Assembly: GCA_021771575.1 (NCBI GenBank)
Contig: JAETOX010000001.1
Location: 62,001-126,000, forward strand
Direction of reading: 5' to 3'
DNA from: Bacteroides sp.
Lineage (GTDB): Bacteria > Bacteroidota > Bacteroidia > Bacteroidales > Marinifilaceae
DNA length: 64,000 bases
The notes under the pieces are model-generated. The model did no database searches. It had not been told where the DNA came from and was given only the letters and a program-made list of their open reading frames with translations. The translations under genes and the position numbers were made by a program. Positions 1 through 58,365 of this stretch are shown in pieces (position 1 is the stretch's first letter; the number at the start of each line of letters is the position of its first letter).

Positions 1-81
1 AGAAGCTCCTTTTTGTAACATTTTCTCCCGCGGACGTTCATCCTCCGCCCAGGAATGGATCGGTAAATATACATCGTTCAT
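1..81 (-). CDS. radC: RadC-family (JAB domain) DNA repair-like protein, N-terminal part only, truncated by window edge
   Basis: Reverse complement of 1-81 reads MNDVYLPIHSWAEDERPREKMLQKGAS, matching the RadC N-terminal motif (I-K-x-W-x-E-D-x-R-P-R-E-K-L...G). Not in the ORF track. Confidence 0.8.
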   Translation of the reverse strand, partial: MNDVYLPIHSWAEDERPREKMLQKGAS

Positions 82-322
82 AATATATTGAAGTTTGCTA
101 TTTGTATTACCGTAATTATCTATTCTCCTCCACTCCGCCAGTATTCCTGCTATGTTTGTTCGAATTACATTCTTAATCTAATATTACGAATATACTACTT
201 TTTTTCTGTTTATAAAATATCATCAACTACTTTTTTTTATTATTTACAAAAATTTATCCACCTCCTCTGCGATATTCCTAAAATATCACAGAGGAGATGG
301 ACAAAAAAATAATCAGATAACT

Positions 323-1903
323 TTATCTCCCCTTATAAGCAATATCTTTGATAAGACCAAAGCCAGTATACGTCTCACCGAATGGAATCAGTTCTGCGGC
401 AAACTCGGGTACCTCATAGAACCGCAAACAGCCTTCACTACCGGTCGCTGCTCCGGACTTGGCAGAGCCAACTGCCAGCCGGTATTGATAGTCTTTAATG
501 GCGTCCGGATATTTATTCCCCAAATCAGGAAGTTTATGGAATTTCAGCATGGAAATGCTTTCACCGGACAATGTGAGTACTCGTTTTGCCGAACGGGTCG
601 CCATATCGTATAGGTACACATCACTGCCATTGTTGTAAATCAGGAAAGGAAGGGTAGGATGGAAAGCATAACAAGTCGCATTCGCCAACCCCGGTGCCGT
701 AGTGGCATCAATGTCGATGTAAGACGTTTGTAAGGGCGAAGATTGATATTGCCCTGTCGTAATGCCGTATATGCTATACTGCCCCGAAGCATCTTTCATC
801 AAAGCGAACACCAACCCATTCCCTTGCCTTGTACCTGCCATATAGATCATGTCTTTCCCGGTTTTCCAATCAAAAAGTTTTTCCTCGGCTTCAGGGTCTT
901 TCGGATCGAACAAATACCTCATCCCATTCACCAGTCCATAAGCATACGACAAGAAATATTTGAATCTCTTATTGGTTTTGTCATACAAGACCCCGTTATA
1001 ACCGTTAGTTTGCCATCGGAATCCTATAAAAGGTGCCATTTTGTAAGTCGGTTCGGTTAAAGGCACATCAACATTAATTTTCACATCGTACACTGAATTT
1101 CCGGAAGCTCTATGGTAAACATCTCCCTCAGCAGTAATCACCACACAACTGTAATTTACATCTTCAGCAATAATGATATCGTCCGTTTTACGTATAAACT
1201 CAACTCCCCGCGGGTCACTGTAATCCGTACGGCTGAAACTTCCGTTATAGGAAAAACACCGATGACTTCCCTCTTCGGTGTAAAGATTCAGGTAAGGAGT
1301 ACTCCCCGTATAGACCATATTGCTTTGCATGTACATTTGAATAGCGCCATGCGACTCCGGCAGAAAATCCAGAATATCCCTCGAAACAACCATCCGCTCG
1401 CCGATTTCGCCAATCATATCAACCCTAACTTTACGCCCTTCATCTTCACACAATACCAACCAACCTTTAGTTAAAGCAGTCGATACTTCCAGTTTAAACT
1501 CGGCGGTAGTAACAATATTTGTCCGCAAATCCTTCACCTTGAACCAAGCGACATAATTACCAGGGTCTATCTCTGCCATAACATTCAAATCTTTTACCAT
1601 AGCAGAATCCAGCAATCTCGGTGTCAGAAAATCACCTCCTGCCGCTTTGTTATAATAATAAGCAAATTCATAATTGGGATCGTCGGCACTAATTTCCCCG
1701 TCAAATTTCGAAATAACAGTGGGCGACAATACCAGATGCTCTGATTTATACAATGCTGCTACCGGCTCTTCCGGAATACCGGTGATGGTCAGTTCGTCGA
1801 TTTCCCTGTAATCGTAATTTCCTTCATCGTCATAACAGGAAAATAAACCGAAAGCGAGGCATAACAATAATATAACGTTGTATTTCATAATCATTTCATT
1901 CAT
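323..1903 (-). CDS. PKD-like family lipoprotein (locus A)
   Basis: Lipoprotein signal (LFSC); paralogous to 49278-50837 and 61461-62963, sharing N-terminal 'GNYDYREIDELTITGIP' and 'GWLVLCEDEG' motifs; sits in a SusC/SusD cassette. Confidence 0.8.
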   Translation of the reverse strand: MNEMIMKYNVILLLCLAFGLFSCYDDEGNYDYREIDELTITGIPEEPVAALYKSEHLVLSPTVISKFDGEISADDPNYEFAYYYNKAAGGDFLTPRLLDSAMVKDLNVMAEIDPGNYVAWFKVKDLRTNIVTTAEFKLEVSTALTKGWLVLCEDEGRKVRVDMIGEIGERMVVSRDILDFLPESHGAIQMYMQSNMVYTGSTPYLNLYTEEGSHRCFSYNGSFSRTDYSDPRGVEFIRKTDDIIIAEDVNYSCVVITAEGDVYHRASGNSVYDVKINVDVPLTEPTYKMAPFIGFRWQTNGYNGVLYDKTNKRFKYFLSYAYGLVNGMRYLFDPKDPEAEEKLFDWKTGKDMIYMAGTRQGNGLVFALMKDASGQYSIYGITTGQYQSSPLQTSYIDIDATTAPGLANATCYAFHPTLPFLIYNNGSDVYLYDMATRSAKRVLTLSGESISMLKFHKLPDLGNKYPDAIKDYQYRLAVGSAKSGAATGSEGCLRFYEVPEFAAELIPFGETYTGFGLIKDIAYKGR

Positions 1904-2704
1904 TTATTCATATGCACTATAATCAACCAGATAATCGCCAGCCAATTGCATCAGCGAACCGTCGAGTTCCCGCACCGGATTGCCTTCATCAGCCTTTTTT
2001 TGCAATTCGATTTGTGCAAACATGGCTAAAGTGGCGTTTATAGAATATAAATTTTTCCGGGAAAACTCCGAATAACTCCATCCCATCATGGTGAGCAAAA
2101 AATTCAGCTTCGCATGAGAATACACACCTAATGTCTTGAGACAATAGAAACTCCACGTCCACGGCTCCTCGAATACCAAAGAATACCGGATAGTAATTTG
2201 TTGTGTGTTAATAGTATCGTTGCCTGCCATAAGGGTTTTGATATAAGGTTTGAAGTATTGGTTTTCTTCTAGTCCCAAAGTGATATATCGGATGACACCA
2301 TCCTGCAACTCATCCGTCTTTTTGATTTTTACCTTTAAATAAGTCATCGCTTCACCCCCCGGCATGATCAGTTCTTCGGGTAAAGTAAAATCCTTTCCCT
2401 CCTCGACGGTACCTCCTATAGCTTTTACAACAAAAGGACGATCCTCCGTAGAAACTTCACCGAACAAACGCACCGGAATACTGACCTGTGTGTAATCGCC
2501 TGTTACGCTTGCTAAAGAGAAGTCGTTTGTAGTATCCCTGTAATTGTATGTGACTGAACTACCAGAATGGGAACTCGAATTATAATAAGCGAAATAAATT
2601 CCCGAAGTACCGTCGGGCTCTCCTTCGTAGTAAATCGCTTCATTTTCCCCGCAACCAACGAACAGCAAGGAATAAACTATGATAAGTAGTAATAGTTTTT
2701 TCAT
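1904..2704 (-). CDS. DUF4843-like lipoprotein (locus A)
   Basis: Lipoprotein signal (FVGC); 'IYF' plus 'RPFVVKAI...VEEGKDF' pattern shared with 50847-51590 and 62975-63700. Confidence 0.75.
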   Translation of the reverse strand: MKKLLLLIIVYSLLFVGCGENEAIYYEGEPDGTSGIYFAYYNSSSHSGSSVTYNYRDTTNDFSLASVTGDYTQVSIPVRLFGEVSTEDRPFVVKAIGGTVEEGKDFTLPEELIMPGGEAMTYLKVKIKKTDELQDGVIRYITLGLEENQYFKPYIKTLMAGNDTINTQQITIRYSLVFEEPWTWSFYCLKTLGVYSHAKLNFLLTMMGWSYSEFSRKNLYSINATLAMFAQIELQKKADEGNPVRELDGSLMQLAGDYLVDYSAYE

Positions 2705-2710
2705 GACATA

Positions 2711-4171
2711 TTAATTTCTATATTTGATTTCACTGTCCGGCAACTGCGGAATATAATAACTGCTACTCATATTCAAGAAAGAATTACTAGACCCTGATTG
2801 AATTTTAGATGTATTCATGCGCTTGTAATAGAACCAGAGTTGTCCTTCGCACAGGAATTCTTTGGCGTACTCCTTTACTAATTCGTCATTCAGTCCTGTT
2901 GTTACTTGTGTTTGATTTCCTCGTCTCAAGCGATGTTTGTTCAAGTAATCATATTTTGCCTGTTCATCGGTAGCACACTCAGCAGCAATTAGATACATCT
3001 CACTCACACGAATTAGTGGCATCAATTTACCATATACGAGATCAGTGTTTCCAAGTTTTCGAAATCGCACATTCATCAGCAGTTCTGCTTCTCCCGGACT
3101 ATTGGAAACCTCCCACCAAGAGTAGCGGTAGTCGCTCAAAACGTCATCTCCGAACAGGTTTTGTACCCGCTGTGCGGCAGGAATCAATTTGAAGGAGGTA
3201 TTGGCATTGGATGCATTGAAGTAAGTGTCGTAAAGATTATTCTTGTCTTCATTCAACAAGGAGAAAAGCACCTCTGATGAAAACGAACGGTCTGGATTGG
3301 AAAAATCGGTGGCGGCACTACGCGTAACCGAAGGATAGAGGACATCTGCCTGGGGATTGTCAATAATCATCCGGGCATATTTTAATGCTTCCGTCGGATT
3401 GCCCGCCCATAGATATACCCGGGCTTTCAACGCCACCACAGCATGATAGTTCAGCCGTAATCCCCGAAAACGATAGGTATTTCCGTCATTGTCACGATCA
3501 TTGTCATTGATCGACATCAGCATTCCTTCGCTTACTGCGGGGTCCCATTCCTTCAATATTTTCTCGGCCTCGGTCAGATCCGTCAGAACCTTTTGAATCA
3601 ACTCACTGCCTGTCAATAGCTCAGACGCAGTTACAGAAGTCGTTTCTTTGTAAGGAATAGCCTTCGCGTCGAGATTCGACGTCATCGGACCAAACATCCT
3701 TAACAGATCGAAATGCAGAAATGCCCGCAAAGCCAAGGCTTCCGCTTTGATCAAATAATACTGCTTGTCATTCAACACTTCGCCCCGACGCTCTTCCGCA
3801 TTTTTCAGGATATTATTGCAATCGAGAATTTGTTTGTAAGCTTCATTCCAGTAGGTTTGTAGCTGGAGTTTCACATTGTCTGTATGGTAAGCATGTTGTG
3901 ACAGGTTGTAAAATGCCGTCTGATTGGAAGTCACATTATAGCGTTGCGCCATAATTTCTACCCCTTGAGTGGTCATGAATCCTCCATATAAATTAGGACT
4001 AAGCAGTTCGGTATACACCCCGTTCAGTGCTCCCCAGAATCCGCTGACCCGGGAAAACACCCGTTCTTCTGCAATACGGTCGGACGGTTGGATATCAAGC
4101 CAGCTGTTGCAAGCCGTGCACAACAGGAGACCCACCACGATGCCGCTTGTGTATTTGAATATTTGTTTCAT
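2711..4171 (-). CDS. RagB/SusD family nutrient-uptake outer membrane lipoprotein (locus A)
   Basis: SusD-type N-terminus (CNSWLDIQPSDRI), 'ALRAFLHFDLLRMFGP' motif, located directly after SusC. Confidence 0.93.
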   Translation of the reverse strand: MKQIFKYTSGIVVGLLLCTACNSWLDIQPSDRIAEERVFSRVSGFWGALNGVYTELLSPNLYGGFMTTQGVEIMAQRYNVTSNQTAFYNLSQHAYHTDNVKLQLQTYWNEAYKQILDCNNILKNAEERRGEVLNDKQYYLIKAEALALRAFLHFDLLRMFGPMTSNLDAKAIPYKETTSVTASELLTGSELIQKVLTDLTEAEKILKEWDPAVSEGMLMSINDNDRDNDGNTYRFRGLRLNYHAVVALKARVYLWAGNPTEALKYARMIIDNPQADVLYPSVTRSAATDFSNPDRSFSSEVLFSLLNEDKNNLYDTYFNASNANTSFKLIPAAQRVQNLFGDDVLSDYRYSWWEVSNSPGEAELLMNVRFRKLGNTDLVYGKLMPLIRVSEMYLIAAECATDEQAKYDYLNKHRLRRGNQTQVTTGLNDELVKEYAKEFLCEGQLWFYYKRMNTSKIQSGSSNSFLNMSSSYYIPQLPDSEIKYRN

Positions 4172-4189
4172 GGTAATTCGGATTAATGG

Positions 4190-7100
4190 TTAAAATGATG
4201 CGGATATGGATAACGAAAACGACCTCGCGAACGGATATTCCGTACCCCGTTCCGTCTTGATGGAAGAGATTTTGAACACTTCGTTCATGTAGGCATTCAG
4301 CCGCAAAGCTTTGAGCCCGAATTTTGCAATCGCAGCCTGGTCAAACTCATAGCCCACCCGGAAAGACTCTAACGATAAAGTGTTGTCATCCTCCACGAAA
4401 CGCGACGACATTTGTGTCGAACCGTTCAAGTTAATGGCTTTGTATTGAGCATGGTCACCCGGTTCTTTCCAGCGGTCGTAATAAGCCCGTTTATCCTGAT
4501 TGTTGTTCAGTCCGGCAGCAGTAATGTTCTCAACCTTATTGAACAGCGAGTTATTGAACATCTGCCCGCCATACCGGTACCTGAAATCAAAATTCACACT
4601 AAATCCCTTGTAAGTAAAGGAAGTACCGAATACTCCTTCAATTTTAGGCCGGTCTGTACCCACCTTCACCTCATCCAAGTAACTAAAATCGTAGGTATAG
4701 GAGCCATCCTTCTTAATAAAGATTTCTTTTCCCGTGGCAGGGTCGATGCCAGCAGAACGTACCGCCCAAAGGTCATCGGGACTGGCTCCGTCATAATAAC
4801 GTTTGAGATTGGTGTTCCGTCCTTCTTCATTGAATTTGTCCAAAGAGTTACCAATCTTGTCGTACTTAGATTTCTGTGTCCGGAAGTTGTACCGTAGCGA
4901 CCAGATGATTCTATCGTGCGGACGATAAATCGGAGAAACAGTGAGCGAACCATTAAAGCCGTTCGACCGTTGCTCGCCAATATTGGTCAGTACCGAAGTT
5001 ACTCCGACAGAGGACGGTACACCGATGGAAGCCAAGACCGGATCGGTATTTTTATCGTAGTAATCCAAGGTAAACGATAGTCGATTTTGAAGTAGTGTCA
5101 CATCGATACCAATGTTTTTATCCAAGGTTACTTGCCATTTCAAATCAGGATTTCCCAAAGCATATAAATTGACTGCCTGATCAAAATAGTTCCGCTGCCG
5201 GTTATTGAAATTGTAAGTCGTAATACTCTGATAGGAAGCAAAACTCTGGTTACCCGGATTACCGACAGAAGCCCGGATTTTGAACATTTGGAACAAATCG
5301 GTATGATCAGCTATGAAAGATTCGTTATGCAGGTTCCACGCTAAACCAAAGGACCAGGTATTCGAATGCTGACGGTTGCTTCCGAAAACGGAAGAGCCGT
5401 TCATACGCCAGGTCACATCCATTAAATATTTACTGTTATAGGCATACCCACCGTTCAGGTATACACTCATCGCTCTCGACCTGCTGTCACTATAAGAAGC
5501 TTTGCCATTTTCCGGATAGCTATTGGCAAATGCCGGAGTGTCGTAATTTCCTTTGGGAAAGCCGATAACTGAATAACCGTTACTCTCGGACTGCGAACTG
5601 GAAAAATTAGCACCACCCACTAAATTTACCCGGTGTTTTTCTGCGATAACAGCTCCGTAGATGGCAGAAAATTCCCCATCATAGTTAAAGCGTTTAGTAT
5701 TGCCATAAATCAGCGATCCTTTCTTTAGCTCTTCCGTCCTCTCATATCGGGTATCCTCGGGTGAAGTGAAGGTATCTGCTTCATCGGTGGTCCGCGTCAA
5801 TCCAATACGTCCTCTAAGTTTCAACGCTTGCAACGGATTATACTCCACTGCAAAATTATCCGTAATACCTAACGACCTTTTCAGAGCCCGACTATTCAGA
5901 CTGGCATTCCACAACGGATTAGGAGCTTCTATATAACCTTCCACATATTCCAGCCATTTTTCTACTTGCCCGTCTACCCGCTTTTCATAGTAAGGATTGG
6001 CAGCAGCATAAGCAGAAAAGCTCACCACCGGATCACCCGAATTAGATAGATTCACCGTCAGTTTATTGCTGAATTGTAATTTACCTCTGCGATACAACAA
6101 ATCCAGATTACCGCTGAATACATTCTTCTTCGAATCTTTCATCACACCGGTTACCCCATTGTAGCTTAAACCGAACCCATAACGCATGTGCTCATCTCCA
6201 CCCTCAGCATAAAGGTTATGACGATGATTAAAACCCACCCGCAGGGGTTCCGACAGCCAGTATGTATCCACCCCACGTGCCACCGAACGCAGGTGGTTGT
6301 TATGCAACTCCTGGAGCTTTTCTCCTTGCTCAAAAGTTCCTCCGAATGGGCTTACCTTATAGCGATTGGAATATTCCTCAAATGCCACTTTTTCACTAGA
6401 ATTCATCAAATTGTAGCTGGAAAGATCCGGCACCTGAAAATTAAAGTTACCCGAATAAGTTACCCGTAATTGCCCCTGAGCCGGCGTTTTTGTCTCCACC
6501 ACAACTACACCGTTCGCAGCTTTAGAACCGTAAATTGCCGTTGAAGCGGCATCTTTTAGTATGGTAATAGAAGCCACCCGGTCCATATCTAAATCTACAA
6601 TGGTTTGAAGAGTGGTTTCGAAACCATCCAAAATAAACAAGGGTTGGTTGGGGTCGGCTTCCAATTCTTCCCGCATCCCGATAATGCTCGTTTTCCCCCG
6701 GATTTCAATATCGGGCAGCCGATTGGGGTCGGCCCCCCATTCGTTACTTTCTATGATAGCAAACGCCGGATCGAGGCTCTTTAAACTTTGCAGGATGTTC
6801 TGATTACCGACCTCTTTCAACTTTTCAGCAGTAAAAGTGGACGCCGAACCGGTAAAATCACTCCTTTTTCGTTCGTAAATACCAGTCACGACCACTTCAT
6901 CCATTGCAGTCGATTCCTCTTCCATGATTACCTGTAAAGGCTGACGATCTTCCACTACAACGACTTTCGTTTTCATCCCGATAAAGGAAAACACCAATTT
7001 AACACGGGGCATTTCGGGTATAGAAATCGAGAATTCCCCCTGAGCATCGGTAGTCACCCCTCTGTTAGTCCCCTCCAATATAATTGTAACGCCGGGCAAA

Positions 7101-7288
7101 ACACTCCCCGCTTTGTCTTTTACCGTTCCGGAATACGTTACCAATTTTTGAGGATTTTCCTGCTTCATTGTTTGCTGTGCACACACTTGCGTAGAGAATA
7201 AGGGAATACACCCAACTACGCAACAATAAAAGATAACCTGTTTTACACAAGACCTCCAGCCAATGTCAAAATCTCCATTTTTTTTCAT
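4190..7288 (-). CDS. SusC/RagA family TonB-linked outer membrane protein (locus A, no STN domain)
   Basis: Carboxypeptidase-regulatory-like domain (YSGTVKDKAGSVLPGVTIILEGTNRGVTTDAQGEF), TonB plug with ILKDAASTAIYGSKAANGVVVVETK, terminal beta-barrel. Confidence 0.96.
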   Translation of the reverse strand: MKKNGDFDIGWRSCVKQVIFYCCVVGCIPLFSTQVCAQQTMKQENPQKLVTYSGTVKDKAGSVLPGVTIILEGTNRGVTTDAQGEFSISIPEMPRVKLVFSFIGMKTKVVVVEDRQPLQVIMEEESTAMDEVVVTGIYERKRSDFTGSASTFTAEKLKEVGNQNILQSLKSLDPAFAIIESNEWGADPNRLPDIEIRGKTSIIGMREELEADPNQPLFILDGFETTLQTIVDLDMDRVASITILKDAASTAIYGSKAANGVVVVETKTPAQGQLRVTYSGNFNFQVPDLSSYNLMNSSEKVAFEEYSNRYKVSPFGGTFEQGEKLQELHNNHLRSVARGVDTYWLSEPLRVGFNHRHNLYAEGGDEHMRYGFGLSYNGVTGVMKDSKKNVFSGNLDLLYRRGKLQFSNKLTVNLSNSGDPVVSFSAYAAANPYYEKRVDGQVEKWLEYVEGYIEAPNPLWNASLNSRALKRSLGITDNFAVEYNPLQALKLRGRIGLTRTTDEADTFTSPEDTRYERTEELKKGSLIYGNTKRFNYDGEFSAIYGAVIAEKHRVNLVGGANFSSSQSESNGYSVIGFPKGNYDTPAFANSYPENGKASYSDSRSRAMSVYLNGGYAYNSKYLMDVTWRMNGSSVFGSNRQHSNTWSFGLAWNLHNESFIADHTDLFQMFKIRASVGNPGNQSFASYQSITTYNFNNRQRNYFDQAVNLYALGNPDLKWQVTLDKNIGIDVTLLQNRLSFTLDYYDKNTDPVLASIGVPSSVGVTSVLTNIGEQRSNGFNGSLTVSPIYRPHDRIIWSLRYNFRTQKSKYDKIGNSLDKFNEEGRNTNLKRYYDGASPDDLWAVRSAGIDPATGKEIFIKKDGSYTYDFSYLDEVKVGTDRPKIEGVFGTSFTYKGFSVNFDFRYRYGGQMFNNSLFNKVENITAAGLNNNQDKRAYYDRWKEPGDHAQYKAINLNGSTQMSSRFVEDDNTLSLESFRVGYEFDQAAIAKFGLKALRLNAYMNEVFKISSIKTERGTEYPFARSFSLSISASF

Positions 7289-7328
7289 ACTGTCATGTTT
7301 TTTGAGTAATACATAATTTGACTTGGTC

Positions 7329-7346
7329 CTCTCTTCTTAAGAGATA
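7329..7346. repeat. Left arm of an 18-bp perfect inverted repeat (ctctcttcttaagagata)
   Basis: Exact reverse complement at 7512-7529; extends inward to 22/24 matches. Confidence 0.95.
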
Positions 7347-7358
7347 CAAGATTCTTTG

Positions 7359-7366
7359 CAAAAGTA
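7359..7366 (-). promoter_or_regulatory. Putative Bacteroidetes -7 element (TACTTTTG) oriented toward susC of locus A
   Basis: Reverse strand TACTTTTG fits TANNTTTG; no canonical -33 TTTG at 19-21 nt spacing. Confidence 0.45.
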
Positions 7367-7511
7367 TGTAAAATATTGACAAAATATACTATATATAAAT
7401 AAAAAATTATTTATCTCAGTTTACACTATTTAAAAATCTCGTCTTTTGTTTATTAATTTCTGATTTTTATATAAGTAACATGCTGTTATTCATATATATC
7501 ATTTGATCTGT

Positions 7512-7529
7512 TATCTCTTAAGAAGAGAG
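7512..7529. repeat. Right arm of the 18-bp inverted repeat (tatctcttaagaagagag)
   Basis: Exact reverse complement of 7329-7346. Confidence 0.95.
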
Positions 7530-7553
7530 TAGGTTTTTACTAAATAATTTTCA

Positions 7554-8771
7554 TTATAAATCATTTATAATAAATGAATTAGCCCTATCAATAAGAGAAT
7601 ATTCCAAAGATTTTAAATAAATTTGTGTTGTCGCTTCCGAATCATGTCCCATTCCTTCACTGATAACCGATATTGGAATATTTTTACTTTTGGCAATGCT
7701 TGCCCAAGAATGGCGGGCAACATAAGTTGTCAATGGTAACCGCAAACCGATAAGCTTCGAAATTCGTTTCAAATAAAAATTAACTGTATACAACTTACTT
7801 TTATACTGTTTCCGCATTTTGTCAGTCTCCAGAGTCGTGATTATAGGTAGAAGGAAAGGAGTATCCAAAGTTGCAAAACCATATTTATCCACTATATCTT
7901 GCATACATTTTTCCCATTTGATGAAAAGTTGCTGACCAGTTTTTCGTCGCCGGTAACTCAAAATTCCATTTTTAATGTCACTTTTCTTCAAATATGCCAT
8001 ATCAATAAACGACATTCCCCGAGTATAAAAACTGAATAAAAAAATATCACGGGCAAAATCCAAACCGGAGTAAAGCATCAGATCTAATTCTTTTATCCGG
8101 CGTATATGTTCGATAGTTAAAGCACGTTTTACAGTTTTGTCTACTCCGGTGTACACATATTTGAATGGATTACATTGTATGATCATTTCTTTCTCTACTG
8201 CCCGGTTATATACAGCCCGTAAAATACGCATATAAAAAGATACAGTGTTCATAACCACTCCTCTTGCTTTCAGGTAAGCTTCATATTCAAGCATCAGATC
8301 GGTATTGATATCCTCCAATAAAAGATCTTTATGCCCTTGAAAGTGTAAAAAACTATGAAGTGCTGCAATATATGTTTCCATTGTTCTTTGTCTATTCAAG
8401 CGTTTTAATTGTAAAATGATGCTTTCCATAAAGCTAAAGAAGGACTGTTCATGCGAAGAATCCCGAAATTTCCGAATAATATCATCCGCCGTATACTCAT
8501 CACGGCACTTACTTTCAAGTGAAGAAACGCTTTTTTTTAATTGCCGGAGATCACGTTCAATATTGGCCTGAAGAGAAATTAAGTAATTACACCGCTGTTT
8601 ATTGGCAGAGGCCACAATGATCCTTGCTTTTTCTTTGTCCCACTCATTTATAAAAATACGGTAATCTGTTTTTAGTTGACGCACTATACGTTTCCGGATG
8701 ATTTGATAATAAATTGTACCTAGCTTTCCATGAACAGAAGAAGGGCGGAATTTTACTTTAATCGATGACAT
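7554..8771 (-). CDS. Tyrosine-type site-specific recombinase/integrase (Bacteroidetes Tsr/invertase type)
   Basis: SAM-like N-terminal domain; catalytic-type residues FYTRGMSFIDMAYL (Arg), RRKTGQ (Lys), YVARHSWAS (Arg), GHDSEATTQIYLKS (His, Tyr). Confidence 0.92.
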   Translation of the reverse strand: MSSIKVKFRPSSVHGKLGTIYYQIIRKRIVRQLKTDYRIFINEWDKEKARIIVASANKQRCNYLISLQANIERDLRQLKKSVSSLESKCRDEYTADDIIRKFRDSSHEQSFFSFMESIILQLKRLNRQRTMETYIAALHSFLHFQGHKDLLLEDINTDLMLEYEAYLKARGVVMNTVSFYMRILRAVYNRAVEKEMIIQCNPFKYVYTGVDKTVKRALTIEHIRRIKELDLMLYSGLDFARDIFLFSFYTRGMSFIDMAYLKKSDIKNGILSYRRRKTGQQLFIKWEKCMQDIVDKYGFATLDTPFLLPIITTLETDKMRKQYKSKLYTVNFYLKRISKLIGLRLPLTTYVARHSWASIAKSKNIPISVISEGMGHDSEATTQIYLKSLEYSLIDRANSFIINDL

Positions 8772-8955
8772 TTATCTGAATTTTAAGTTAATATTTTTTC
8801 AAAGCTCTTTTTTCCTGAAGTCGAAAATACTCTCTCCCAATATTTTGAGACCAGCATGATAGGTATGTTTACAGGGAGAAGAAGTCGAGCGGAATTATTG
8901 GTCAGACACATAAATTTACTGTGGTTTACAGTAAACTTTTTTCAGAGTAATACAA

Positions 8956-8991
8956 GGGGGGCGATGGGATTGGGATGGGGTTGGGCTGGGG
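8956..8991 (+). other. G-run array, potential G-quadruplex
   Basis: GGGGGG-cgat-GGG-att-GGG-at-GGGG-tt-GGG-ct-GGGG: six runs of at least 3 G with loops of 2-4 nt. Confidence 0.65.
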
Positions 8992-9118
8992 ATTCGCTAC
9001 CTCAACTCCGTTGAAGAAACGCTACAGAAGCGCTTCAAAAGCAGTTGGCGATACGTCTACAACGCTTGCGCAGCGCTTCTGATACGGCCCGAAAGTAGCG
9101 AATCCCCGGCCCAACCCC
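8977..9118. repeat. Inverted-repeat element with 24-bp arms (23/24 match) and nested internal stem
   Basis: Arms ggggttgggctggggattcgctac (8977-9000) and gtagcgaatccccggcccaacccc (9095-9118); nested agaagcgct/agcgcttct inside. Confidence 0.85.
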
Positions 9119-9225
9119 AGTAGAACCCCTACCTCTATACAGGAAAATGACAAAAAGAATAACTAACAAAGAAAGGAGATGAGTTTTCACTCATCTCCCA
9201 TATATGGATTTGTAGGACAAACGAA

Positions 9226-9477
9226 TTACAGCTTATTTACGTGCAAAGCTAATTTGGATTTGAGGTTGGCAGCTTTGTTATCGTGGATAACATTTTTCTT
9301 TGCCAACTTATCCAACATTGCAACCACTTTCGGCAATAATTCTACAGCTACTGTTTTATCAGTCGTCATACGCAATTTTTTTACCGCATTCCGAGTGGTT
9401 TTTGCATAATAACGGTTACTTGCTCTTTTAGTTGCAGTTTGTCTAATTCTTTTTTCTGATGATTTATGATTTGCCAT
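9226..9477 (-). CDS. rpsT: 30S ribosomal protein S20
   Basis: [35 protein letters not shown] is a typical S20 N-terminus. Confidence 0.96.
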
Positions 9478-9509
9478 CTCTACAAATATAAAAATTCAAC
9501 TTCTTGATG

Positions 9510-9581
9510 TAGTCCGTACGAGAATCGAACTCGTGTTACAAGAATGAAAATCTTGCGTCCTAACCCCTAGACGAACGGACC
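9510..9581 (-). tRNA. tRNA-Glu (anticodon TTC)
   Basis: Reverse complement GGTCCGTTCGTCTAGGGGTTAGGACGCAAGATTTTCATTCTTGTAACACGAGTTCGATTCTCGTACGGACTA folds as a cloverleaf; anticodon loop TTTTCAT. Confidence 0.95.
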
Positions 9582-9602
9582 ATGTTTTTTCAAAATTTTA
9601 AG

Positions 9603-9674
9603 TAGTCCGTACGAGAATCGAACTCGTGTTACAAGAATGAAAATCTTGCGTCCTAACCCCTAGACGAACGGACC
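9603..9674 (-). tRNA. tRNA-Glu (anticodon TTC), second identical copy
   Basis: Identical 72-nt sequence to 9510-9581. Confidence 0.95.
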
Positions 9675-10008
9675 AGCGTTTTGCTTAGCGGATGCAAATA
9701 TACGGCAAATTTATTTACCACCAAAAAAAATGCCTTTTTTTTTCATATGATTTTTAATAAAATTCACAAATTATTCATTTTTAATCGCATAGCTCACGAT
9801 ATAATATACATTTGAGAACGGTTATTTGAAAACAAGAAGCAAACTAATGGTCTGCATAGTTATAAAAACTATTTTCGGGCATATTATAGAATGTTCAAAA
9901 TTTGGAAAAGAGAATACTAACCGATAGATAGGATAAACTATTTAAAAGCATTTATAGAAAAAATAGCAGGTGAATTTGTATTTTTGTTCCGCATAAATTT
10001 GAAAACCT

Positions 10009-10728
10009 ATGGGAAAACTTTATTTGATACCGACTCCTGTCGGTAATCTGGAAGACATTACATTAAGGGCACTTCGGTTATTAAAGGAAGTAGACTTGAT
10101 TCTGGCGGAAGATACCCGCACGACAGCCAAACTACTGAAACATTATGAAATCGGAACCCCTCTGCTTTCCCATCATAAGTTCAACGAACACCAGCAAACA
10201 GACCGCATAGCCGAACGACTCGAACGTGGCGAAAATATAGCTTTGGTGAGTGATGCCGGAACTCCGGGAATTTCTGATCCGGGTTTTTTACTGACCCGCA
10301 CCTGTGTGGCCAGGGGAATAGCAACCGAATGTCTGCCGGGAGCAACTGCTTTTGTACCAGCTCTGGTCAATTCGGGCTTTCCTTGTGACCGGTTTTGTTT
10401 CGAAGGCTTTCTCCCACAAAAAAAAGGACGTCAGAAAAAACTGAATTCCCTGGCGGAAGAAAACCGTACCCTGATTTTTTATGAATCTCCCTTTCGGCTG
10501 GTCAAAGCTTTAGAGCAAATGGCCGAAGTCTTCGGTCCGGAAAGATATGCCTGTGTCGCCCGTGAGATCAGCAAAGTTTTTGAAGAATACAAAAGAGGTA
10601 CCCTCGGCGAACTTGCCCATTATTACAACAAACAAGGCATAAAGGGCGAAATTGTCCTGATCGTTGCCGGAAAAGACTATAATCCCACCGGTGGCGTAAG
10701 CATTGAAATAGAAGAGGACGAAGAATGA
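10009..10728 (+). CDS. rsmI: 16S rRNA (cytidine(1402)-2'-O)-methyltransferase
   Basis: MGKLYLIPTPVGNLEDITLRALRLLKEVDLILAEDTRTTAKLLKHY and SDAGTPGISDPG motifs. Confidence 0.96.
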   Translation: MGKLYLIPTPVGNLEDITLRALRLLKEVDLILAEDTRTTAKLLKHYEIGTPLLSHHKFNEHQQTDRIAERLERGENIALVSDAGTPGISDPGFLLTRTCVARGIATECLPGATAFVPALVNSGFPCDRFCFEGFLPQKKGRQKKLNSLAEENRTLIFYESPFRLVKALEQMAEVFGPERYACVAREISKVFEEYKRGTLGELAHYYNKQGIKGEIVLIVAGKDYNPTGGVSIEIEEDEE

Positions 10729-53040: not shown

Positions 53041-56000
53041 TTAGAACATTGCAGACAACGAAAACGAGAAGGAACGAGCAAATGGATATTCAATTCCCCG
53101 CTCTTCCTTAATCGAAGAAATACGGAATAAATCTGTTGTATTCGCTTGCAAACGCAAAGACTGGATTCCCAGTTTCTGTACTGCTTGCGCTTCAAAATCA
53201 TAACCGATTGATATGGATTCGGCCTTGATATAATTCTCCCGCAGTACAAAACGGGAAGAAATGGGAGTCGTTTCAGTCAGCGAAATCCCTTTAAATCTGG
53301 CATGATCCCCCGTTTTCTGCCAACGGTCGTGCAAAGCGCGTTTGTCTTGATTGCTTTTCAAACCGGCCAATGAAATGTTTTCAACCTTATTATAAGTAGC
53401 TTCTGTAAATACATCCGCTCCCAAGCTATATCTGAAATAAAGCGAGAACGAAAAACCTTTCCAATACAGGGTACTACCCAATACCCCTTCCAGCTTCGGC
53501 TCGGAATTACCGACAACCACTTCGTCATCCGTATCGTACTCAAATGTATAAGTACCTTCTTTAGTCAAAAACAGTTCACGCCCGTCCGACGGATTGATCC
53601 CCAACGAACGTACGGCCCACAAAGCCGTAGGACTTCCACCATCATAATACCGCACCAGGCTCGTATTCAGATTTTCTTTATTGAATTGGTCCAGGCTATT
53701 ACCAATGTCTTCATATTTCGCCTTCTGGTGTTTGAAACTCGCACTCAACGTCCAGTTTATCCGCTCTTCCGGACGGTATACAGGAGAATATTTCACTGTC
53801 CCGCTAATCCCTCGGGTCCGCTGACTACCCACATTCGTCATCACCCTCTTCGAGCCAACGGACGAAGCCACCGACACGGAAGCCAATAAAGGGTCCGTTA
53901 GTTTGTCATAGTAATCCAAGTTTACATTCAAACGATTATTCATCAAGGTCAAATCCAAACCGATATTTTTATCCAGCGTCTTCTGCCATTTCAAATCGGG
54001 ATTACCAAAATTCGCCACCAACATACTGGTCCCAAATGGATTTTGATTCCCGTTATTAAATACATACGTGGTATAGGACTGATAAGAATCAAAATTCTGG
54101 TTACCCGGATTACCGATAGAAGCCCTCAGTTTCAAACGGTCAAACCAGGTGTAATTCTCCATAAATTTCTCGTTATGTACATTCCAGGCTATCCCCACAG
54201 CCCAGGTTTCCGAATAGCGTTTGTTGGTGCCGAAAACCGATGTCCCATCCATGCGAATATTGGCATCCAGCAGGTAGCGGTTATCAAAAGAATACCCACC
54301 GTTAAAATAAAAACTATTCGAACGACTGACTATCTTACCATAAATCGGTTTGCTGCCCTGTGCATAGCCGCTTGAAAAAGAAGGACGTTTGAAATCGCCT
54401 ATCGGAAAACCCTGTGAAGTGTTTTCCTCTGAGGTTGCCTCGTCCGAACGCATGCGTGCCCCCAGTACCGCATTCACCTGATGCTTTTCGCCCAACACTT
54501 TACCATAGCTAAGGGTGATATCACCGTCATAATAAAAACTCTTGCCAACACCACTTTCATACTCACCTTTTTTATCGAAAGATACATTATCATATATCGG
54601 ATCTCCCGGTGAGGTAAAATTGTCCGATTTCGTCTGACTCAAACCGAGCCCAAACCGTCCCCGTAATACCAATTCCGGCAAAAAGCGTAATTCTGCATTC
54701 AACTTATTGTCGAACTTCGAGCGTTCGTTCAAATTAAAACTATTCAATGTTGCATTATAAATCGGATTCTCTACCCGATAAGGACCTGAGTAAGTCTCCA
54801 TATCCACCAGATAGCGCTCGATTTTCCCGGTCCCCGCATCCTTCCTGTAATACGGATTTGCCTTCGCAAAATCTGCAAACGATACAATCGGGTCTTCTTG
54901 TTTATAATAATCGTAAGACATCTTATTACTAATCGAGAGCATGCCTTTCCGATAAGTCAAATCAAAATTAGCACCGAGCAACTCGTTCCAGGATTGCTCC
55001 ATCACTCCATTTGTCCGATTATATGTAAATCCTAATCCGTAGCGAATCGCCTCATCACCACCTTCGGCATAGATATTATGCTTATGGGTAACAGCAGTAC
55101 GTACCGGCTCGCCCAACCAATAAGTATCCACCCCCCGTGCAATCTCCGCTCGGTTGATATTATACAAACTATCCAAAAAGAGCTGCTCATCAGCATTTCC
55201 CATAGCTGAAACATACCGTCCGGCCCTCTGTTCAAATTCCAGCTTTTCTCTGGCATTCATCAGATTATAATCGGACAAATCCGGTACCGATATGTACAAA
55301 TTTCCACTATAGGTCACCCGGAATTTACCCGGTTCCGGTTTCTTAGTCTCAATCACGACCACACCATTCGCCGCCTTCGACCCATAGATAGCCGTCGAAG
55401 CCGCATCTTTCAAAATAGTCACCGAAGCCACCCGGTCCATATTCATATCCACCACCGTTTTCAAGTCGGTCTCAAAACCGTCCAGAATAAACAAAGGTTG
55501 ATTAGGGTCGGTTCCAAATTCTTCCTTTAACCCGATCACACTACTTTTGCCACGAATTTCAATATCCGGTAATCGGTTAGGGTCGGAACCATAATCCCGG
55601 CTCTCCATAATTGTAAACGAGGGATCGAGTGTCCGCAAACTCTGCAATACATTCTGGCCACCGACACGTTTCAGCTCCTCCGACTTGAATGTCACAGCAG
55701 AACCGGTAAAACTCTCCGACTTCCGCTCAAAAATACCGGTAACCACCACTTCTTCCATCTCTTTCATCTCAGGCTCCAGTTGAATGGACAGTGGAAAATC
55801 AGCCAATTCTCTTACCACTCGTTCCTGTCGGGCATATCCCACTGAGCTGAATACAAGGGTAACCGGTAAAGACACAGGAACTACTGCCTTGAAACTCCCC
55901 TGCGCATCCGTAGTAAAGCCCAAATTCGTATCCTTGATCAGGATAGTAACTCCAGGTAGAGGTAAATCGTTTTCATCCCGGACTTTACCGTATATTTCAA

Positions 56001-56388
56001 TTGATTTTAATGACTGGTCCGAATCCGCAATATTCAGAATCACAACAAAATCACCATCAATGGAATAATCGACAGACTTACCAGGAAATACCTGCTTCAA
56101 CGCTTCCTCTATGGTAGCACCATCGAGCTGAAGATCTACTTTCCGCTGCGTATCAAATTGGACGTTACTATAAAAAAAATCTTTATGCAACTCTTTACCC
56201 AGCATTCGCAATGATTGTTCCACTGTCACACCAGACACTTTTAAGGTCAGCCGCTCTCCCTGAGAGTAAACAGCAGCTGAAACATGAAGAAAGCCCAACA
56301 GCATAAATAACCACGTCAATCGCATAAGAAACAACGTTTTTTTCAACCATTCTCTGAAAAACGGCCATGAATCATGATTTTTTTTCAT
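53041..56388 (-). CDS. SusC/RagA TonB-linked outer membrane protein with N-terminal STN signalling domain (locus B)
   Basis: STN-like LTLKVSGVTVEQSLRMLGKELHKDFFYS; plug ILKDAASTAIYGSKAANGVVVIETK; strong paralogy to 4190-7288. Confidence 0.96.
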   Translation of the reverse strand: MKKNHDSWPFFREWLKKTLFLMRLTWLFMLLGFLHVSAAVYSQGERLTLKVSGVTVEQSLRMLGKELHKDFFYSNVQFDTQRKVDLQLDGATIEEALKQVFPGKSVDYSIDGDFVVILNIADSDQSLKSIEIYGKVRDENDLPLPGVTILIKDTNLGFTTDAQGSFKAVVPVSLPVTLVFSSVGYARQERVVRELADFPLSIQLEPEMKEMEEVVVTGIFERKSESFTGSAVTFKSEELKRVGGQNVLQSLRTLDPSFTIMESRDYGSDPNRLPDIEIRGKSSVIGLKEEFGTDPNQPLFILDGFETDLKTVVDMNMDRVASVTILKDAASTAIYGSKAANGVVVIETKKPEPGKFRVTYSGNLYISVPDLSDYNLMNAREKLEFEQRAGRYVSAMGNADEQLFLDSLYNINRAEIARGVDTYWLGEPVRTAVTHKHNIYAEGGDEAIRYGLGFTYNRTNGVMEQSWNELLGANFDLTYRKGMLSISNKMSYDYYKQEDPIVSFADFAKANPYYRKDAGTGKIERYLVDMETYSGPYRVENPIYNATLNSFNLNERSKFDNKLNAELRFLPELVLRGRFGLGLSQTKSDNFTSPGDPIYDNVSFDKKGEYESGVGKSFYYDGDITLSYGKVLGEKHQVNAVLGARMRSDEATSEENTSQGFPIGDFKRPSFSSGYAQGSKPIYGKIVSRSNSFYFNGGYSFDNRYLLDANIRMDGTSVFGTNKRYSETWAVGIAWNVHNEKFMENYTWFDRLKLRASIGNPGNQNFDSYQSYTTYVFNNGNQNPFGTSMLVANFGNPDLKWQKTLDKNIGLDLTLMNNRLNVNLDYYDKLTDPLLASVSVASSVGSKRVMTNVGSQRTRGISGTVKYSPVYRPEERINWTLSASFKHQKAKYEDIGNSLDQFNKENLNTSLVRYYDGGSPTALWAVRSLGINPSDGRELFLTKEGTYTFEYDTDDEVVVGNSEPKLEGVLGSTLYWKGFSFSLYFRYSLGADVFTEATYNKVENISLAGLKSNQDKRALHDRWQKTGDHARFKGISLTETTPISSRFVLRENYIKAESISIGYDFEAQAVQKLGIQSLRLQANTTDLFRISSIKEERGIEYPFARSFSFSLSAMF

Positions 56389-56493
56389 ACATTTGTAATT
56401 ATTGTTAATATGGTTTTGTCTTCGACGTCAATTTCTAAGACAAAACAAATTATTAATATTTAACCGGAAAAGGTCTGCCAACCGTTCCGGTTT

Positions 56494-57651
56494 TTATTTA
56501 TCGGTAATGACTACCTGTTCTCCTTTCACCACAAAACACACAGGAGCTGTCGCCTCAATCATTCTGAACAAATCAGACAAAGGCCGGAACTTCTGAATCG
56601 CCCCGGAAAACCGGATATTCTTCAGATCCCCCCGAACAAAAGTATATTTCACATCATACCAACGCCCCACTTGTTGCATAATTTCCTGAAGAGTGGCATT
56701 TTGAAAGCTAAATTTACCTTCGATCCAGGAAACAACCGAAGCAACTTCCACTTCCCGGACAGTCATTTGTTTTCCATCAGATAGCAGTTGTTGACCAGGC
56801 CGTAAACAGACAGAATTTCCTTTAGAAGCCAAAACTTCAACGGCTCCTTTTACCAAAGTCGTGGCCACGCCAGCCTCATCAGCATAAGCCATCAAGTTGA
56901 ATTCTGTTCCCAAAACCTTAACCGTTACTTTTTCAGTTTCTACCCGGAACGGCCGTAGTGTATCTTTTTGTATTTTAAAATACCCTTCTCCTTTCAAGCG
57001 GACAACTCTTTCCTGTTCACTGAAATGGGCAGGAAATTCAAGTTCAGAAGCAGAATTCAACCATACCACCGAACCATCCTCCAATTTTAAGCGATATTCC
57101 CCGCCATTGGGTACAACCAATTTTTGTATGGCCTGTACTCCGACTTCTTGATTTTTATAATGGAGCATCCGCCCGGAATCTATACAAACCATTACCCGTT
57201 TGTCCCGAACAAATATGGTGTCATTCACATCCGAGGGCACAAAAACCTGTCCCCCATCAGCCAACACGAAATAAGCGAGTTTGTTTACAGGCGCATCCAG
57301 ACGGACGGATTCCTGCAAACCGAACTCCCGTCTTTTCTGCTGCTCCTGCAACCACCATCCCCCTCCTAAACTGAGCAGAAGCAATCCTATTGCCGCATAC
57401 GACATCCAACGCTTCACTATACTCTTTCTTTGCCTATGAGATTTCACCCAAGCCAATTTCCGGAGTACATCGGGCGTAAAATCCTCTTTCAGTACAACCA
57501 AATACCGATGCACCTGCCGTATCTTCTCAAACTCTGCCCGATGACTATCGCTTTCCTGCAACCACCTGTCAAGCAACTCCGCTTCTTCATCCGGGAGCCG
57601 GCCATTCAATTGATCAATTATCCGCTGCTCAGTCTGTTCGTCCATATCCAT
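56494..57651 (-). CDS. FecR family anti-sigma/transmembrane regulator
   Basis: VVPNGGEYRLKLEDGSVVWLNSASELEFPAHFSEQERVVRLKGEGYFKI and C-terminal NATLQEIMQQVGRWYDVKY. Confidence 0.94.
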   Translation of the reverse strand: MDMDEQTEQRIIDQLNGRLPDEEAELLDRWLQESDSHRAEFEKIRQVHRYLVVLKEDFTPDVLRKLAWVKSHRQRKSIVKRWMSYAAIGLLLLSLGGGWWLQEQQKRREFGLQESVRLDAPVNKLAYFVLADGGQVFVPSDVNDTIFVRDKRVMVCIDSGRMLHYKNQEVGVQAIQKLVVPNGGEYRLKLEDGSVVWLNSASELEFPAHFSEQERVVRLKGEGYFKIQKDTLRPFRVETEKVTVKVLGTEFNLMAYADEAGVATTLVKGAVEVLASKGNSVCLRPGQQLLSDGKQMTVREVEVASVVSWIEGKFSFQNATLQEIMQQVGRWYDVKYTFVRGDLKNIRFSGAIQKFRPLSDLFRMIEATAPVCFVVKGEQVVITDK

Positions 57652-57729
57652 TTATTGTCCTTTTTATGAAGGACGCAGCAAACAGAAAAAAGGGTGAAAA
57701 AGAAATGAATTTTTTTAGGAAATAAAATT

Positions 57730-58365
57730 TTAATATCCGGCCTGCCCGGCAAAGATAAAAAATAAGAAAAGATGTTGCCGGGAAAATTCTTTCCGCAACT
57801 CGCGGTAAGCAATCTTTATTTGGGTCTTTACTGTATTCACCGATATCTCCAAATATTCAGCCACTTCGGCATACTTCATCTCTTCAAGCACCACCAATTT
57901 CAATATCAAACGGCATTGCTCAGGCAATCCTTCCACAGCTTTCCACACCATTCCCCACTCATCCGGTTTCGGGTTATCCTCTTGCTGCTGTGTCACAGCC
58001 TCTAACCCGATAAATTCTTTCTGTTTTCTGGTAAAACTCACACAACCATTTCTCACTGCAACGTACAGATAACTATCCAACGATCTGTTTTTTTCAAGCC
58101 TCACCCCCCTTTCCCAAATACGGACAAACACTTCCGAAACAACATCCTCGGCAGCCTCTCTCGACCCGATAAAAGCCCTGGCAAAACGACACAAGTCCGT
58201 ATAATACGTCGTAAATACATAATCAAAAGCCTGCTTCTCTCCCCTTTCCAAATCCCGGATGATTTTTTCATCTATATGCCTTTTTGTCTCCACCTTAAAT
58301 CGAATTACACTTCTACAAATATAGGAAGATGTCTCGAAAACGCAAAATAGGCATAAATAATCCAC
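57730..58365 (-). CDS. ECF-type RNA polymerase sigma-70 factor
   Basis: FDYVFTTYYTDLCRFARAFIGSREAAEDVVSEVFVRIWE; YAEVAEYLEISVNTVKTQIKIAYREL; true start likely internal. Confidence 0.92.
   Translation of the reverse strand: MDYLCLFCVFETSSYICRSVIRFKVETKRHIDEKIIRDLERGEKQAFDYVFTTYYTDLCRFARAFIGSREAAEDVVSEVFVRIWERGVRLEKNRSLDSYLYVAVRNGCVSFTRKQKEFIGLEAVTQQQEDNPKPDEWGMVWKAVEGLPEQCRLILKLVVLEEMKYAEVAEYLEISVNTVKTQIKIAYRELRKEFSRQHLFLFFIFAGQAGY

Follow-up and report, generated by a model that had tools for sequence, protein, structure and literature searches.

A 64,000-nucleotide stretch of Bacteroides sp. DNA (hereafter the window), here placed in a gut Odoribacter, carries what appears to be a phase-variable (ON/OFF) SusC/SusD operon, the body of which derives from a FecR/ECF-sigma-controlled locus and in which inducer sensing has probably been exchanged for a stochastic switch; we put the probability of this reading at roughly 85%. 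In the proposed mechanism, the neighbouring tyrosine recombinase would recognize two 15-bp cores, TCTCTTCTTAAGAGA, and exchange strands inside their central ~7 bp, thereby inverting a 201-bp element. In the ON orientation, which is that of the window, TACTTTTG would transcribe susC-susD-DUF4843-PKD, while in the OFF orientation the promoter would be directed antisense at the recombinase 3′ end, leaving the operon silent. We infer both the inversion and the control of expression in the window genome.

The original prediction had placed perfect 18-bp inverted repeats, 22/24 when extended, on either side of a 165-bp segment between the susC start and the recombinase 3′ end; on re-reading, the positions proved exact and both gene ends lie as claimed. 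The susC-proximal arm, CTCTCTTCTTAAGAGATA, occupies 7329-7346 on the + strand, with its core TCTCTTCTTAAGAGA at 7330-7344 belonging to a class common to ~60 relatives, and the recombinase-proximal arm is found at 7512-7529 on the − strand (core at 7514-7528). Complementarity between 7329-7352 and 7506-7529 reaches 22 of 24 positions, the outer 18 bp being perfect. The segment interior (7347-7511, 165 bp, not assigned to a strand) is AT-rich, and orthologous segments are flipped in relatives. When the 265-bp intergenic stretch was shuffled 150 times, no perfect inverted repeat longer than 13 bp arose; the observed 18-bp repeat with 165-bp spacing exceeds this expectation. Searching the 3.64-Mb genome with a 17-mer core (≤2 mismatches) returned matches at the two window arms only.

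Inside the segment, the + strand at 7359-7366 reads CAAAAGTA, which corresponds on the − strand to the −7 promoter element TACTTTTG, directed toward susC (ON), with 29 bp separating it from the arm core's outer edge. The sequence of this element is as originally reported. Upstream of it lies the tract TTTTGTCA, which conforms to a TTTT..CA..A consensus common to the family of related elements described below. By itself, a −7 motif is weak evidence in AT-rich DNA, and it is the constant position of this motif across relatives that makes the window copy significant. Consensus sigma-70 matches inside the segment were at chance level and were set aside as evidence.

The element abuts an intact gene for a tyrosine recombinase of 405 aa (7554-8771, − strand) with Arm-DNA-bind_5, Phage_int_SAM_5 and Phage_integrase domains. 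Residues R251, K277, R353, H354, H376 and Y385, which we take to be the catalytic residues, are conserved in an alignment of 80 recombinase proteins, and NCBIfam gave generic Xer matches only, below cut-off. From the recombinase to position 10009, the window holds a gene resembling ribosomal protein S20 (read by eye), which adjoins the recombinase, and two tRNAs, with no further open reading frame of at least 100 aa, in agreement with the earlier statement that the locus has no FecR/ECF-sigma pair. The tRNAs are tandem, nearly identical tRNA-Glu(ttc) genes (9509-9581 and 9602-9674), 0.7 kb from the recombinase and the sole Rfam features found. Between the recombinase and the S20-like gene there is also an imperfect inverted repeat (8976-9119; 57 nt, 75%).

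The integrase-type domains and the nearby tRNA-Glu pair, together with operon flanks that are both unlike those of the orthologous operon considered below, would fit a recombinase that serves as the integrase of an integrative element, with repeats that act as attachment sites or terminators and have no part in regulation. We regard this as highly improbable, given that no att-like direct repeats were found within window positions 1-10000, that the S20-like gene directly adjoins the recombinase, and that a terminator scan found no terminator-like site. Moreover, the arms are inverted, 165 bp apart and always next to the recombinase 3′ end, with a promoter inside.

Using the window recombinase as a query, we retrieved 80 loci (contigs, one genome per species). 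In ~60 of these, a same-class inverted repeat directly follows the recombinase stop codon, starting 10-50 bp past it (mostly 20-45). This shared arrangement and arm signature supports the proposal that the neighbouring recombinase is cognate to the window element. Alignment of the arms yielded the core consensus TCTCTTNNNAAGAGA (TCTCTT NNN AAGAGA). The central triplet takes 20 values among 46 distinct sites and agrees between arms in 46/46, whereas at positions at least 8 bases out on the outer side the arms differ in most loci; these loci were chosen by arm similarity (≥13/15), with few mismatches at outer positions and none at central ones. As central triplets match and outer positions differ, the sites display the pattern required of a strand-exchange region.

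The position of the promoter is also regular. A TANNTTTG motif is located 27-29 bp from the outer core edge in 54/63 elements, on either strand, and the position of the window motif is thus one kept across the family. Counting orientations, 45 elements were OFF, with the promoter toward the recombinase, and 9 were ON, with the promoter toward the downstream gene; the window is among the latter, as had been proposed. Odoribacter sp. Z80 (L003/L134, L134:9368-10588) encodes a 67%-identical recombinase beside a flavodoxin-like gene, with no downstream inverted repeat, and this is probably an orphan of the family. Other family loci are degenerate and have no matching arms. Viral-labelled IMG/VR contigs (L167-L173) also carry the recombinase and an adjacent inverted repeat, ON in L170 and L171, and may be mis-binned host islands.

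Both orientations are represented within the family. Comparison of B. nordii (L049, ON) with Bacteroidaceae IMSAGC_004 (L046, OFF) revealed segments that are 100% identical in reverse between flanks that are 100% identical, while the segment of L060 matches those of L041, L042, L050, L051, L057 and L065 at 91-94% in reverse, with flanks at 95-98%, and L053 matches L059 at 99% in reverse. One isolate of the sister clade, O. lunatus DSM 112344, encodes a recombinase that shares 64% identity with that of the window and groups in the same clade of the family tree. In this isolate, contigs C53 and C26 end in an identical 77 nt made up of an arm and the promoter end. On C53 these 77 nt follow the recombinase, forming the OFF junction; on C26 they face a UpxY/NusG-like gene with a weak KOW match, forming the ON junction. 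An overlap of 77 nt is what an assembler run at k=77 leaves at a fork, and both orientations were thus very probably present in the O. lunatus reads. Contig ends within 8 kb downstream of the recombinase are likewise concentrated near the element, with 7/31 in the first 183 bp against ~0.7 expected if they were uniform.

A more distant case is provided by the pMMCAT plasmids (L175, NZ_CP072253.1), in which a recombinase 52% identical to that of the window is likewise followed by repeat-bounded segments. These differ from the window element in preceding a UpxY-led polysaccharide operon and in forming two tandem segments, each slightly longer than 200 bp. The second segment was inverted in 1/19 copies, while the first had a single orientation in 17/17. 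On the plasmids, the tandem segments lie between recombinase and operon at L175:5221-5950 and L176:4206-4770, the second having a different central triplet.

The architecture of ~60 relatives, the flipped orthologous segments and the two O. lunatus junctions support the original prediction of an invertible promoter. At the window copy itself, inversion is presumed from these relatives. A search of the window genome assembly (G000) found the ON form only and no alternative junction. A single orientation would also be seen if the element were a locked relic, one that arrived with recombination, no longer inverts and leaves susC constitutively on, and the Z80 recombinase without a repeat indicates that relics occur in the genus. 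This is unlikely, as the window arms are perfect over 18 bp, the promoter is conserved, the recombinase is full length with its catalytic residues kept, and the degenerate loci of the family, by comparison, have no matching arms.

Inversion could also be real and be driven mainly by another recombinase in trans. Master invertases act at distant sites in B. fragilis (Mpi, Tsr0667 and Tsr19; PMC4747536), and G000 encodes two further relatives of the window recombinase, a 53%-identical one on contig C113 being an example of a candidate. Against this, every family recombinase lies beside its own site, central triplets are locus-specific, the window site is present nowhere else in the genome and the C113 gene has no adjacent repeat, which makes a main role for a trans-acting enzyme very unlikely. 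On contig C132 of the same genome (L093), a distant (43%) relative is accompanied by a ~317-bp repeat-bounded element before an outer-membrane-like gene, and the genome may thus hold another phase-variable locus.

In most cases, the gene placed first downstream of a family element belongs to restriction-modification or is of the helicase/defence kind (Type II, IIG, III, ISP-like, DrmD-like), other targets being DUF3575, CsgG-like and UpxY/polysaccharide genes. Many Bacteroidales restriction-modification and defence operons (L006-L021 and others) are apparently preceded by an invertible promoter of this family, which in most assemblies is OFF; in B. xylanisolvens XB1A, the sequence right after the inverton is masked from L011:9461 onwards. 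SusC is the target in two cases only, the window and a locus in genome G006 (L085, OFF). As the recombinases of these two loci fall in different clades of the family tree, SusC was probably captured separately in each. Widening the search to the order, with the L085 recombinase as query, added no other SusC target.

We identified a counterpart of the whole window operon in a complete genome of the same genus, G007 (4,392,288 bp), which we take to be O. splanchnicus-like, with 76% nucleotide identity across window positions 322-6993. All window operon genes are on the − strand: susC (4190-7288; 1032 aa, mosaic, without an STN domain), susD (2711-4171; SusD-like_3, SusD_RagB), a DUF4843 gene with an orthologue in the G007 operon (1904-2704) and, last, a PKD_2 (PKD-like) gene (323-1903), at the end of which the nucleotide match to G007 stops. 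On neither side of the operon do the outer flanks agree between the window genome and G007, so either the operon moved or its surroundings changed. The G007 susC encodes 1110 aa, including an N-terminal STN-like domain (E 6e-5, below the Pfam cut-off); before it lie fecR and an ECF sigma gene in divergent orientation.

The window SusC has a mosaic breakpoint at residue 127/128. Residues 1-127 (6908-7288, − strand), comprising a signal peptide and a carboxypeptidase-regulatory domain, resemble a SusC of the G018/G015 type minus STN, while residues 128-1032 (4193-6907, − strand) are 86-100% identical by segment to the G007 orthologue. The G018 SusC has a signal peptide, an STN domain (E 1.4e-13), FecR and sigma; in the window protein, the STN stretch is missing between the signal peptide and the carboxypeptidase-regulatory domain. 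The L085 SusC also lacks STN. The N-terminus of the window susC orthologue was not found in G006, a 67%-complete genome in which the sequence breaks off inside susC.

SusC N-termini are generally less conserved, and the divergent N-terminus could on that account reflect drift after STN loss, with no recombination with another susC. The change is abrupt, however: identity to G007 is 38-45% over residues 41-127 and 100% over residues 128-170, and the same residues 41-127 are 62-72% identical to G018/G015, compared with 27-56% for the rest of the protein. Drift is therefore an improbable explanation. The comparison rests on two complete operon forms, which leaves some room for the reverse history, in which phase variation came first and G007 acquired its FecR/ECF-sigma control, with STN, at a later time. 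In the SusC tree, the window and G007 proteins pair with each other (100/100), the STN-like extension being present in most of the proteins around them, and SusC is rare as a target of this recombinase family; both observations argue against such an order, which we consider rather unlikely.

Invertible promoters with adjacent tyrosine recombinases are well known at Bacteroidales surface loci (Tsr19, Tsr0667: PMC4747536; review PMC12632263), numerous inversion sites have been reported in O. splanchnicus (PMC5903667), and invertible-promoter modules have been re-used for resistance genes on Bacteroidales ICEs (Yan et al. 2022, PMC8748976). With its bounding repeats, internal Bacteroidales promoter and intact recombinase, the window belongs to this known kind. 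In the B. fragilis Tsr19/BF2766 inverton (IVp-I; PMC4747536), as in the window, a promoter element with a TAnnTTTG −7 lies directly downstream of the recombinase and serves a surface operon. OFF is predominant there in culture, a further point of likeness. The likeness is one of arrangement, and in contrast to the window, the target is an EPS operon and Tsr19 also inverts a distant promoter. The ICE resistance modules (PMC8748976) similarly combine a local invertase, an invertible promoter directly downstream and new cargo, but carry resistance genes as cargo, with an origin in capsule loci, whereas the window target is a SusC/D operon without a sensing system. The B. fragilis Tsr0667 shufflons (Nakayama-Imaohji 2009, via PMC4747536) share with the window a tyrosine recombinase at SusC/SusD loci; Tsr0667 reportedly acts on 12 regions including multi-gene shufflons, while the window element is one simple inverton with no second copy in the genome. 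The window repeat occurs only twice in that genome, unlike the multiple sites and several SusC/D cassettes of a Tsr0667-type shufflon. The Tsr0667 repeat motif is also said to differ from that of the window.

The other point of reference is the FecR/ECF-sigma SusC/D locus, represented by G007 (L132), G018 (L181) and a second locus of the window itself (locus B, 53041-58365). Their SusC core is homologous to that of the window susC, no invertible promoter was seen at any of the three, and they are expected to be inducer-responsive via STN; the window operon, by contrast, has neither STN nor adjacent FecR/ECF sigma genes. In the open-licence literature, we found no paper joining SusC, FecR/STN and invertible promoters, and no prior description of a sensing system being traded for a switch, as the susC mosaic suggests here.

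TonB-dependent receptors use their STN domain to pass signals on to anti-sigma factors of the FecR type. Lacking both STN and FecR/sigma, a receptor has no such route for reporting its substrate, so that promoter flipping is the likely control of the window operon. On this basis, the operon body would descend from a SusC locus of the kind seen in G007, under FecR/ECF-sigma control; the regulatory pair and STN would then have been lost, and a recombinant, STN-less N-terminus behind a recombinase/invertible-promoter module would have taken over. The susC mosaic makes this exchange likely. We infer the order of events, and the donor and direction of the regulatory exchange are judged from few genomes, with one complete orthologous operon (G007); because flanking contexts differ between the window and G007, the exact events cannot be replayed. 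With somewhat better than even confidence, we further suggest that STN, FecR and ECF sigma gave way wholesale to a module made up of the recombinase, the invertible promoter and an STN-less susC N-terminus, so that a transporter once inducible became bet-hedged, and that STN loss is perhaps a general mark of SusC under such promoters (2/2 cases).

These findings define a Bacteroidales switch family, marked by the site TCTCTTNNNAAGAGA, by a promoter in fixed position and by a clade of recombinases, which spans restriction-modification/defence, polysaccharide and transporter operons. An STN-less SusC beside such a recombinase is offered as an annotation rule. The window would represent a natural case in which nutrient sensing has seemingly been swapped for random switching in an outer-membrane transporter and, if so, it is by chance, not by nutrient, that a given cell comes to make the transporter. 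This allows a direct test of why some Bacteroidales transporters are bet-hedged while others are induced.
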